Shown here piece after piece: positions 9,102 through 13,963 of a DNA stretch of 47,040 nt; the first letter of the stretch is position 1; each line of letters begins with the position of its first letter. The notes under the pieces are model-generated. The model did not search any database. It saw only the letters and a list, made by a program, of their open reading frames with translations, and had not been told where the DNA came from. Made by a program: the position numbers and the translations under genes. The stretch spans positions 1 through 47,040 of the forward strand of contig JAJRYK010000036.1 of assembly GCA_024275825.1 (NCBI GenBank), in the 5' to 3' direction. The DNA is from Alphaproteobacteria bacterium. Its GTDB lineage: Bacteria > Pseudomonadota > Alphaproteobacteria > Micavibrionales > Micavibrionaceae.

Positions 9102-10121
9102 ATGAACAACACCCCTTACACAGCCCCATTCCCGGTCAGCCGCATGCGTCGCCTGCGCGGCTCTAACGCGCTACGCGATATGCTGCAAGAACATCACGTG
9201 AGCGTAAATGACCTGGTTTACCCCATGTTTGTCGAAGAAAACCTGGATGAGCGCACGCCCATCACCTCCCTGCCCGATGTGTTTCGGGAGACTGAACAGA
9301 GCATTGTGACAGCGGCCAAAGAAGCGCATGATCTCGGCATCAACGCGATCATGTTGTTCGGCGTCTCGCACAATAAGGACGAAAGCGGCAGTGATTCTAT
9401 GAGCGAGAGCGGCCTGCTCTATCGCATGATCGATCGGGTGAAACAGGCTGTGCCGGATCTGCTGATCATCGCCGACACCTGCTTTTGTGAATATACCGAC
9501 CACGGGCATTGCGGGCCGATCAACGCCAAAGGCGGTGTGGATAATGATGCGACGCTGGAGAATTTAGCCAAACAAGCCATCATCGCCGCACGCGCCGGGG
9601 CTGATATCATCGCGCCATCGGGCATGATGGACGGTATGATTGGCGCGATCCGCGCAGGGCTGGATAGCGACGGATTCGAAGAAACGCCAACCATGTCTTA
9701 CGCCGCAAAGTTTGCTTCGTGCTTTTACGGCCCGTTCCGTGATGCCGCTGGCTGCAGCCTTGAAAACGCGCCAGAGGGGCTGCGCAATGATCGCAAAACC
9801 TATCAAATGAACCCCGCCAACGCCGACGAAGCGCTGCGCGAGGTTGCGCTGGATATCGCCGAGGGCGCGGACATGGTGATGGTCAAACCCGGCATGCCCT
9901 ACCTCGATATCATCTGCCGCGTCAAAGACACATTCAAAGTGCCCACCTTCGCCTATCACGTCAGCGGTGAATTCGCGATGCTGAAAGCGGCCAGCGAAAA
10001 AGGTTGGCTGGAGTATGATGACGCGCTGATGGAAACCCTGCTCAGCTTTAAACGCGCCGGATGCGATGGCGTGCTGAGCTATGGTGCGCTCGATGCAGCG
10101 CGGCTTTTGCAAAAGAAATAA
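9102..10121 (+). CDS. hemB: Delta-aminolevulinic acid dehydratase (porphobilinogen synthase)
   Basis: HemB condenses two 5-aminolevulinate molecules to porphobilinogen in haem synthesis. The 339-residue protein keeps both Schiff-base lysine regions (SYAAKFASCFYGPF and MVMVKPGMPYLD). Its metal loop reads DTCFCEYTDHGHCG: three cysteines in the positions of a catalytic zinc site. Many alphaproteobacterial enzymes instead have the magnesium type with Ala and Asp there. The start at 9102 (MNNTPYTAPFPVSRMRRLR) is chosen by homology to the usual N-terminus. An upstream in-frame TTG would add twelve non-conserved residues. The EAL gene follows after 61 bp. Confidence 0.96.
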   Translation: MNNTPYTAPFPVSRMRRLRGSNALRDMLQEHHVSVNDLVYPMFVEENLDERTPITSLPDVFRETEQSIVTAAKEAHDLGINAIMLFGVSHNKDESGSDSMSESGLLYRMIDRVKQAVPDLLIIADTCFCEYTDHGHCGPINAKGGVDNDATLENLAKQAIIAARAGADIIAPSGMMDGMIGAIRAGLDSDGFEETPTMSYAAKFASCFYGPFRDAAGCSLENAPEGLRNDRKTYQMNPANADEALREVALDIAEGADMVMVKPGMPYLDIICRVKDTFKVPTFAYHVSGEFAMLKAASEKGWLEYDDALMETLLSFKRAGCDGVLSYGALDAARLLQKK

Positions 10122-10182
10122 AGCAGTCTCAAAAATTTCATGCTATGCTGAGCACTCGGTTTCACTAAGCCTAAACTCACTC

Positions 10183-11790
10183 ATGTCCAAAACCCTAAAA
10201 ACACAGCGCGATCGATTCTTGGCTTTTGCCTTTGCCTCAGCGGACATGCTGATTGAGGTCGCGGATGATGGCAAAATCATTTTTGCAACAGGCGCGATCC
10301 AAAGTCTAACAGGCGAAAAAGGGGAAACATTGGAGGGATCGAGCTGGCTCAACCTCTTCTCAACCTTTGAACAGGCGCGCATGCTTTCTCTGATGGAAGA
10401 AGCGCCGCACGGCGCACGCTGTGGCCCCTTCCTGATTGACATGAACCACTTGAAGACCAAGCGCAAGGGCGTGGTGACGGGCGTCAAGATGCCTTATAGT
10501 CGCAATTTCTTTGTCACGATCAGTTTAAGTAATGAGCTAATGGACGACATGGCGCAGCCCGCGCATGATGAGTTTGACGATAGCCTCTGGAATAAAACGC
10601 AATTTATTGACGCCGCAGAACAAGTCTTCCACTTCGCCCGCACCACAGACAAAGAAGCTGACCTCACCATGTTTGATTTCGGACGCAGCGAAACCATCCC
10701 TGAAGAAAACTGGGCCGAGGCGATGGGTGAGATGGCTCGTTATTTACGTGAACAAGCACTGGACGGCAAAGCTGTCGCCGAAATTGCCGATGGCCGCCTC
10801 ACCTTCATCCACGACCATAATGTAAATATTGAAGAGGTTAAAGCCCACATCGAATCAATCTTCAAAGAGAAAGATCCAGACGGCGCCGGGCTAGAGGTCA
10901 AGACCCGCACCATAGCGACCAACTCTGGTGAAATGGAGCCTGAGGAGGCGCAAAAAGCCTTCTACCACACCATCAACGAGCTAGCCTCAGGTAAAGATAT
11001 TTCAGACGACATTCAGAGCTTAAGCCAGAGCCTTAAAGCTCTCGTTACCGATAATCAAAGCAAAATATCACAGCTCAAAAGCTTCATCGACACTGTAAAC
11101 TTTAAGTTTTTCTATCAGCCCGTCACGAATCTCAAAGATTTAGAACTGCATCACTATGAAATGCTCTGTCGCTTTCCTGAAGGCGACACGCAGGACTGGG
11201 TTACCTTTGCGCAGGATGTAGAGCTAGGTGTTGATCTTGATCTGGCTGTCTGTGAGCGCGCCATTACGCAATTGACACGAAAGCTAGCCGGCAGCCGTAC
11301 ACCCTACGCCATAAACATCCTTCCTGGCTCTATCGAAGACCCAGCCTTCGTTGAAAAACTCATGGAATCACTGGACAAAGAAGACAGCATTCATGAACGA
11401 CTAATCATTGAAATCACCAACGCTAAATTGATCAAGCCCAACAGCGTTTCCTCTCTATTCACCAAAACCTTACGTGAAAAAGGGTTTAAAATTACCCTCG
11501 ACAGCTTAGCCGCAAACGCAAAAGGCATTGAAATTCTCGACGCTATCGAATGTGATACTGTAAAAATGGACGGCTATTACAGCGAACTCGTCATAAAATC
11601 AGAGCATGAGCGCTCGATGGTTAGCCATCTAGCAAAAACCTGCAAAGAAAAGAAAAGAACCTTGATTGGCAAGTCCATCGAGAGCAAAGAACAAGCAGAT
11701 ATGCTCGACTCGCTCGGCGTGCAATATGGTCAGGGGCAATATTTTGGCGAAGCCGAGTCTGCTCCAGCTTACGCACCACCTAAAGATTAA
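10183..11790 (+). CDS. PAS-like plus degenerate EAL-domain protein
   Basis: The 535-residue protein has an N-terminal PAS-like region (about 8-105: MLIEVADDGKIIFATGAIQSLTG), a charged linker, and a C-terminal EAL-type barrel (about 305-530). The barrel retains FYQPV, IEIT, VKMDG and QGQYFGEAES. The EAL signature is YEMLCRF, and the DDFG metal and catalytic loop is replaced by LDSLAANA. Cyclic-di-GMP phosphodiesterase activity is therefore doubtful. It may bind c-di-GMP or a partner protein. The start at 10183 is chosen because earlier codons overlap hemB. It lies just upstream of motA-motB, which would fit a motility switch, but that is inference. Confidence 0.85.
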   Translation: MSKTLKTQRDRFLAFAFASADMLIEVADDGKIIFATGAIQSLTGEKGETLEGSSWLNLFSTFEQARMLSLMEEAPHGARCGPFLIDMNHLKTKRKGVVTGVKMPYSRNFFVTISLSNELMDDMAQPAHDEFDDSLWNKTQFIDAAEQVFHFARTTDKEADLTMFDFGRSETIPEENWAEAMGEMARYLREQALDGKAVAEIADGRLTFIHDHNVNIEEVKAHIESIFKEKDPDGAGLEVKTRTIATNSGEMEPEEAQKAFYHTINELASGKDISDDIQSLSQSLKALVTDNQSKISQLKSFIDTVNFKFFYQPVTNLKDLELHHYEMLCRFPEGDTQDWVTFAQDVELGVDLDLAVCERAITQLTRKLAGSRTPYAINILPGSIEDPAFVEKLMESLDKEDSIHERLIIEITNAKLIKPNSVSSLFTKTLREKGFKITLDSLAANAKGIEILDAIECDTVKMDGYYSELVIKSEHERSMVSHLAKTCKEKKRTLIGKSIESKEQADMLDSLGVQYGQGQYFGEAESAPAYAPPKD

Positions 11791-11995: not shown

Positions 11996-12886
11996 ATGAA
12001 GTTACTTGGCCTTCTTCTTGTTTTTGTCTGCACCTTTGGTGGCTTGCTCGTTGCTATGGGCTTTAACATACCTGCCTTTATGGGCTTGATGAGCGTTATT
12101 CTTGGCGCGTTCACGGGGGAGTTTATTATCATCATGGGCTGTGCGTTCAGCGCGTTTCTGATCGGAAACACGATGGATGTGATCAAGATGAGCGGCAAAT
12201 ATATGAGCGCGCTCACCACGCCTGAGGCCTATAATAAAGACGACTATATCGAGTTATTCAGCATGCTCTTCACCGTATTTAAACTATCCCGAACAAAGGG
12301 CTGGCTGGCGCTGGAAACCCATATCGAAAACCCGGATGATAGCGATCTGTTTGCGCAATTCCCCGGCTTTCAGGGCAACCACCACGCGCTTATATTCTTC
12401 TGTGATTACTTACGCATTATCTCTCTGGGCAATGAAGACCCGGCGCAGCTCGGCGGATTGATGAGCGAGGAAATTCACACTATTGAGCATCACGAACACC
12501 ACGCCGGACACGCCGTTCACCATATGGGAGAGGGTATTCCCGCGCTGGGCATTGTGGCGGCGGTTCTTGGGGTGATTAAAACCATGGCCTCCATCTCCGA
12601 ACCGCCGGAGGTTCTGGGGAAAATGATCGGCGGCGCGCTTGTGGGAACATTTATGGGCGTGTGGATCTCCTACGCCTTCGTTGGCCCAATCGCGCTGGCC
12701 ATGACGGCGAAGGCCGAGACCCAAGTCATGTATTACAAATGCATCAAAGTCTGCATGATCGCCTTCCTGAAAGGCGCTGCGCCGCAAGTTGCCGTTGAAT
12801 TTGGCCGTAAAACTATCCCTCATAACGTGCAGCCGGGCTTCTTGGAGCTAGAGGAAAAGCTCAACGAACTCCCTGCGCCGAGCTAA
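11996..12886 (+). CDS. motA: Flagellar motor stator protein MotA
   Basis: MotA forms, with MotB, the proton-conducting stator of the flagellar motor in the inner membrane. The 296-residue protein has four predicted membrane helices: two near the N-terminus (LLGLLLVFVCTFGGLLVAMGF and an FIIIMGCAFSAFLIG stretch) and two after residue 175 (GIPALGIVAAVLGVIKTM and MIGGALVGTFMGVWISYAFVG). The conserved proline of IPALGIVAAVLGV and the cytoplasmic charged stretch LSRTKGWLALETHIENP, which meets the rotor, are present. A histidine-rich segment (HHEHHAGHAVHH) precedes helix 3. motB follows after 6 bp. The rest of the flagellar regulon is not in the window. Confidence 0.95.
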   Translation: MKLLGLLLVFVCTFGGLLVAMGFNIPAFMGLMSVILGAFTGEFIIIMGCAFSAFLIGNTMDVIKMSGKYMSALTTPEAYNKDDYIELFSMLFTVFKLSRTKGWLALETHIENPDDSDLFAQFPGFQGNHHALIFFCDYLRIISLGNEDPAQLGGLMSEEIHTIEHHEHHAGHAVHHMGEGIPALGIVAAVLGVIKTMASISEPPEVLGKMIGGALVGTFMGVWISYAFVGPIALAMTAKAETQVMYYKCIKVCMIAFLKGAAPQVAVEFGRKTIPHNVQPGFLELEEKLNELPAPS

Positions 12887-12892
12887 AACAGG

Positions 12893-13963
12893 ATGGGGCA
12901 AAGCATGAGCAACAAAAGCATCCAAACGCAAATCATAATAACCGCCCTGCCCGCCATGCATGGCGGCGCGTGGAAGGTGGCCTATGCTGATTTCGTGACC
13001 GCGATGATGGCGTTCTTCCTCCTGCTCTGGCTGCTCAGCTCCACCACACAGGAGGAGCGCGAAGCCATTGCGCAATATTACGACCCCACCGCCATCAAGG
13101 TTTCCGAAAGCACAAGCGGCGCGGGCGGCGTGATGGGCGGCCTGAGCATGAGCCCGCAGGGCGCGATGGCCACCAATGTGCAAACCCTGTCCATGCCCAA
13201 CACATCAACGCCAAAATCAGCAACGCAGGCCCATAAATACGGTGATAAATCGGCCTAGCCCAGCAAGGACAAAACCGCCACCGTTGAAAAGGCAAAAGAA
13301 ATCCTGCGCAAGGCCGAGGAAAAGAAATTCAAGGCCGCCGAGGCTGCGCTTAAAAAAGCCATAGAAGATGATCCGGAGCTGGCGGCGCTGAAAGATAACC
13401 TCATGGTTGATATGACACCCGAAGGCCTGCGCATTCAAATCATTGATCAGGACGGCGCGTCCATGTTCGCCTCCGGCTCTGCGCGCATGTTCGCAAAAAC
13501 TAAAAAACTGATGGCCAAGGTGGCCGAGCTGGTCAAGGAGATGCCAAATGAGCTGTCCATTCGCGGCCATACCGACGGCACGCCCTATGGCTCCGGCGCG
13601 GATTATACAAATTGGGAGCTATCGGCCGACCGCGCCAATGCCAGCCGCCGCGCGATGCTTGATGCCGGCATACCCTCCGACCGCCTCAATAACGTGATGG
13701 GCAAGGCCGATACGGAGCACCTCTATCCCGAAACACCAAAAGACCCGCGCAACCGCCGCATCTCCATCATCATGCTGAAAGAAGAGCTAACCAACCCGGA
13801 GAAATTCGAAGAAATGGCCCAGGACGCAGCGATAGATGCACAAATGGACGCTGAAGAAGCCGGCGCACTAGACGATGATTTAGACGGCAATTACGACTCA
13901 GCCCCCCGACAAGTCCCCGTAGGCACCTTCCGCAAAACCCCGGGAGCTGTGCAGTTTCCTTAG
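12893..13963 (+). pseudogene. motB: Flagellar motor protein MotB, split by an in-frame amber codon
   Basis: MotB anchors the stator to peptidoglycan. The first segment (12893-13258, or from ATG 12905) has GGAWKVAYADFVTAMMAFFLLLWLL with the proton-carrying aspartate, then a TAG at 13256-13258. The same reading frame then continues unbroken (PSKDKTATVEKAKEIL...) to 13963. It contains the OmpA-type peptidoglycan-binding domain: SIRGHTDGTPYGSG, WELSADRANASRRAML, DPRNRRISI. The break falls in the linker between the membrane plug and the periplasmic domain. Without readthrough the anchor would be lost. The cause may be mutation, sequence error or recoding. Coding character on both sides is equally strong, so the lesion is recent or tolerated. 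Confidence 0.9.

Follow-up and report, generated by a model that had tools for sequence, protein, structure and literature searches.

The locus examined here raises a simple question: does an in-frame amber codon in the middle of a flagellar motB gene mean that the stator is lost, that the codon is read through, or that the draft sequence is wrong and the gene of the organism whole? The window, which is the whole stretch of 47,040 bases that was analysed, is contig C32 of a 1.92 Mb draft genome (G000) in 55 contigs, the completeness of which is given as 99.77%. Among named records, 16 hold relatives of this motB, and all are labelled Alphaproteobacteria bacterium or, in 4 cases, Micavibrio sp. 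As described in PMC12434310, MotB has a short tail in the cytoplasm and a single membrane helix, together with a plug, an unstructured linker and a peptidoglycan-binding domain by which the stator is anchored.

The amber codon separates the channel from the anchor

Two genes upstream of motB appear intact, as the sequence-only reading had stated. The EAL-domain protein encoded at 10081-11790 on the forward strand matches Pfam EAL (PF00563) with an E-value of 1.3e-37 over profile positions 5-235 of 236, and the motA gene of the MotA1 type directly upstream of motB (11996-12886, forward strand) scores 309.5 bits against TIGR03818, above the curated cut-off of 303.8, and is also matched by Pfam MotA_N and MotA_ExbB. 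Translation of the motB frame at 12893-13963, likewise on the forward strand, gives 121 residues, a TAG, 234 open residues and a terminal TAG. The 5' part (12893-13258) encodes the transmembrane helix, the plug and the start of the linker; Pfam MotB_plug matches residues 22-62 (E 1.2e-17) and the channel Asp is residue 33, within the single transmembrane helix. Translation could equally well start at an ATG at 12905. The internal TAG occupies 13256-13258, at residue position 122. The 3' part (13259-13963) encodes the remainder of the linker, the peptidoglycan-binding OmpA-like domain (Pfam OmpA, E 6.1e-14, residues 69-166 of this part, about 13463-13756) and a C-terminal tail, GTFRKTPG..FP, which is conserved in the alignment with 41 relatives around the motif GTFRKTPGxVxFP. 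The terminal TAG (13961-13963) lies at the C-terminal end that the relatives have in common.

Apart from the one TAG, the frame contains no second internal stop and no frameshift, yet owing to that codon the two MotB domains are not encoded in one open reading frame. The best NCBIfam match of both halves is the same family, PRK09041/NF006548 MotB, with 86.6 and 179.6 bits; each score is below the 277-bit cut-off, as is expected of halves since that cut-off was set for the whole protein. The locus thus resembles a MotA1/MotB stator in having motA directly upstream and in possessing the channel Asp, the plug and the peptidoglycan-binding domain, but differs from it in that the frame is cut after codon 121. 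Because the MotB_plug match lies before the TAG and the OmpA match after it, the stop separates the channel from the anchor. The placement of the codon given in the sequence-only reading is therefore correct, and so is its estimate that termination would leave an unanchored channel piece of about 120 residues, the membrane and plug fragment being 121 residues long.

The N terminus of the protein (12893-12955) is without the Lys-rich stretch that precedes HGGAWKVAYADF in most relatives. The idea that this might be a second lesion was discarded, as the stretch is also absent from 11 of 41 distinct open relatives (for example, L004, L039 and L045-L049).

The stop is private to one genome

Genes of both stators described in this work were sought in 58 genomes, G000 being one of them, which leaves 57 others; for motB the query was the full frame with X at the position of the stop. 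In 54 of these 57 genomes motB spans the linker without any stop, and none of the 54 carries a stop at this position. The remaining three, with completeness of 64, 77 and 73%, yielded a partial copy at the end of a contig (G045), a match at the level of OmpA only (G020) and no match (G041), respectively. In G001, G049 and G052 the match falls into two pieces inside a frame reported as open, as a second analysis also showed for G001. The stop is private to G000 among the genomes searched. As 54 of 57 genomes have a continuous protein to which both halves align, the interruption is more than a chance succession of two frames, and the lesion disrupts an otherwise conserved gene, as is expected of a pseudogene. 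If the other genomes are restricted to those with completeness of 90% or more and contamination of 5% or less, 47 remain, and every one of them retains the first stator type.

The alignment used for conservation comprised the window sequence and 41 distinct relatives, after five identical rows had been dropped. The TAG sits in the gap-rich, most variable part of the linker, a segment of 21 to 53 residues across the alignment, and its column is filled, always by a sense codon, in only 9 of the 41 aligned relatives. The claim that the downstream frame is fully conserved accordingly applies to the peptidoglycan-binding domain and the C-terminal tail, but not to the hypervariable linker around the stop. 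Of the alignment columns, 84 are conserved in 95% or more of the other 41 sequences; the window deviates at 3 of them, as compared with 0 to 7 for the others when each is left out in turn. The peptidoglycan-binding domain has a mean identity to the other sequences slightly higher than the median (0.634 versus 0.617); the N-terminal part, at 0.703 versus a median of 0.75, ranks tenth lowest of 42. The codon score is 0.19 after the stop and 0.14 before it, the median for open reading frames of at least 300 amino acids being 0.12. Neither in stops and frameshifts nor in the conserved columns was any further decay of motB found; with nothing to indicate prolonged decay after the stop, the lesion should be either recent or not real.

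TAG is an ordinary terminator in this genome

Stop usage was counted, and nonsense lesions were sought, in 524 kb of G000 that include the window and further stretches. Among 410 mechanically called, non-overlapping open reading frames of at least 150 amino acids, 218 end in TAA, 111 in TAG and 81 in TGA, and 26 of the 111 that end in TAG have C as the next base, as does the internal TAG of motB. The gene for release factor RF1 (prfA) is present, scoring 495.2 bits where the cut-off is 423.25. Reassignment of TAG was therefore rejected: the genome encodes RF1, and TAG commonly serves as terminator, including that of motB itself.

The tRNA search of G000 gave 30 matches that pass the gathering score, and in these 30 loci ARAGORN named no CUA or UUA anticodon, in a set from which some isotypes are absent. 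No tRNA for Gln, Glu, Tyr or Ile(GAU) was recovered, which probably reflects gaps in the assembly. When the E-value limit was raised, two further matches below the threshold appeared. A tRNA-like stretch on contig C54 (C54:654-718, equal to L082:654-718, reverse strand), which was considered as a possible odd tRNA, seems to be a degenerate tandem duplicate of tRNA-Thr(UGU) without the T-arm and adjoins the intact gene at 512-584.

Single stops interrupt other conserved genes of the draft

The motB stop is not alone: counting it, roughly half a megabase holds three or more genes cut by a single stop. An exbB-like gene on the reverse strand of contig C1 (L087:4122-4658) is cut by a single TAA (L087:4296-4298), with MotA_ExbB profile positions 19-80 and 86-124 of 127 matched on the two sides; in contrast to the motB codon, this stop lies within the conserved domain. 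On the forward strand of contig C16, the gene for a ubiquinol-cytochrome c chaperone (L095:4313-4924) is likewise cut by a single TAA (L095:4763-4765), with matches to positions 2-86 and 92-140 of 140 of PF03981, the second of which is below the family cut-off (E 0.0067). Since each of these two genes is cut by TAA, nonsense in G000 is not specific to amber, and the occurrence of two different stop codons is more in keeping with background pseudogenes or consensus errors than with amber recoding.

A codon-score scan of the same 524 kb for nonsense lesions gave seven candidates at one setting and four at another. Two of the candidates, motB and the cytochrome chaperone, were confirmed by Pfam matches on both sides of the stop; most of the others appeared by eye to be the end of one gene followed by the start of the next in the same frame, while a candidate at position 70332 of C16 was not settled by eye. 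As the exbB lesion was missed at both settings, these scans under-count nonsense.

A second, open stator accompanies the flagellar genes

The sequence-only reading had proposed that motility may be lost, and had suggested a search of the rest of the genome for a second motB and for flagellar genes. The G000 assembly yielded no further gene for a MotB of the same type. Contig C13, however, carries a flagellar gene cluster, in which Pfam identifies FliF, FliG, FliN, FliM, FlhA, flagellin and CheZ and further members were recognized by eye, together with an open stator pair of another type. The MotA-like gene of this pair (C13:228735-229571) encodes a protein that scores best against PomA and next against MotP, both below the curated cut-offs, and the protein encoded by the MotB-like gene (C13:255455-256309) is nearest to MotS, also below the cut-off. 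Given this cluster and the open second stator, loss of motility is not a necessary consequence of the motB lesion. The same reading had held that a second complete motAB pair combined with further decay at the locus would speak against it; the pair is indeed present, but the decay in motB is not.

Relatives of the second-stator MotA occur in 45 of the 57 other genomes (E<=1e-50) and those of its MotB in 37 of the 57 (E<=1e-20); the first type is retained still more uniformly. G002, a member of the same family with 100% completeness, appears to have the first stator type only, and no complete relative of the same family with the second type only was seen among the 57 other genomes.

Discussion

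The explanation that we prefer, though with little better than even confidence, is that a recent nonsense mutation has disabled, in this strain or lineage, one of two stator systems of the flagellum. The ribosome would then halt at codon 122, leaving MotA and a 121-residue MotB piece that contains the membrane helix and the plug. We infer that this piece would assemble with MotA but would not be retained at the motor; without the peptidoglycan-binding domain, the stator presumably could not be fixed around the rotor. As the plug is kept, the truncated stator would be expected to stay closed and not to leak protons, and torque might then be supplied by the PomA/MotP-like second stator of contig C13. 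No new kind of system is called for, and the motB lesion is an ordinary one. That loss of the stator in a Micavibrio-like lineage was selected rather than neutral is highly doubtful, and no evidence that the organism is a predator emerged from this analysis.

A fixed loss of the first stator type would be unusual in this group, as all 47 well-covered genomes keep it, and for that reason an error of the draft consensus, or a base contributed by a minority strain, is retained as a strong rival, with the motB of the organism being whole. It is a distinct possibility, although we hold it to be less probable than not, and it fits the observations about as well as a real mutation does: the remainder of motB is open and conserved, the gene is uninterrupted in nearly all other genomes searched, and at least two more conserved genes of the draft, exbB and the chaperone, are each cut by a single TAA. 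On the other hand, single-base consensus errors are rare, which we count against it, and the TAG falls in the least constrained part of motB, although this position may merely reflect better tolerance there.

An amber codon that is read through, owing to a suppressor tRNA or a leaky context, would yield some full-length MotB and a reduced or conditional number of stators, as the sequence-only reading had also envisaged. We consider this unlikely. The open and conserved frame downstream agrees with it, and the RNA after the stop folds somewhat better than expected: 80 bases reach -16.9 versus a shuffle mean of -11.4 (sd 2.8) and 97 bases reach -22.1 versus -15.6 (sd 3.5), although the control, mononucleotide shuffling, is crude, the stretch is coding and an excess of about 2 sd is a weak point that was given little weight. 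A suppressor could also lie in an assembly gap, given the absent Gln, Glu, Tyr and Ile(GAU) tRNAs, and an ochre suppressor could decode both TAG and TAA. Yet the tRNAs named by ARAGORN include no CUA or UUA anticodon, RF1 is present, TAG ends 111 of 410 open reading frames as well as motB, none of the 54 relatives that have motB contains the stop, and the two other lesions are TAA, which an amber suppressor could not read, so that beyond the open frame little speaks for dependence on readthrough. It is still less probable, and indeed very improbable, that each half is translated on its own and the two act as a split protein, or that the truncated form serves some separate purpose. Translation from an ATG at 13403 could yield a 186-residue product with the whole OmpA-like domain, but by eye neither a ribosome-binding site before this ATG nor an export signal that would precede the domain was seen, and the protein is split in 0 of 54 relatives. 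Of the earlier reading as a whole, the unanchored 121-residue fragment stands; motility loss does not follow, and readthrough has little in its favour.

Lesions of stator genes have precedents. PMC7410920 documents frameshifts or deletions of motA and motB in Brucella ovis and, for B. ovis and B. melitensis, motA/motB frameshifts or deletions along with single-base premature stops in other flagellar genes; a motB frameshift reported for Burkholderia mallei is mentioned in PMC2743711. G000 is similar to Brucella (PMC7410920) in combining a stator-gene lesion with the retention of many flagellar genes. It differs in that many flagellar genes are hit in Brucella, whereas in G000 only motB is hit among the subset of flagellar genes examined, and a second stator is open. 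Bacillus subtilis (MotAB/MotPS) and Pseudomonas aeruginosa (MotAB/MotCD) likewise have two distinct stator sets per genome; unlike in those bacteria, the first set is cut in G000 and both sets are predicted from their genes. Literature searches, with the terms used, gave no report of a nonsense codon in motB among relatives of Micavibrio. If the mutation is real, G000 would represent a natural dual-stator bacterium that is losing the stator type kept by all 47 well-covered relatives. At the same time, the case calls for caution: a lone stop in a draft that also contains stops of another codon should not be read as motility loss or readthrough.

Other features of the second-stator motB

A MotB-like membrane protein of 223 amino acids is encoded directly before the second-stator MotB (L085:12776-13447; C13:254775-255443 in G000). 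Searches of Pfam, NCBIfam and PHROGs assigned it to no family at E<=0.001, and it has matches in 30 of 38 genomes, its own included; in all 12 sequences inspected, again including its own, the membrane helix is without an Asp at the channel position. This protein and the second-stator MotB might form an asymmetric pair of B subunits. Among the matches listed for the second-stator MotB, those at G011:C17:378909-379718 and G041:C18:23898-24617 each contain one internal TGA.
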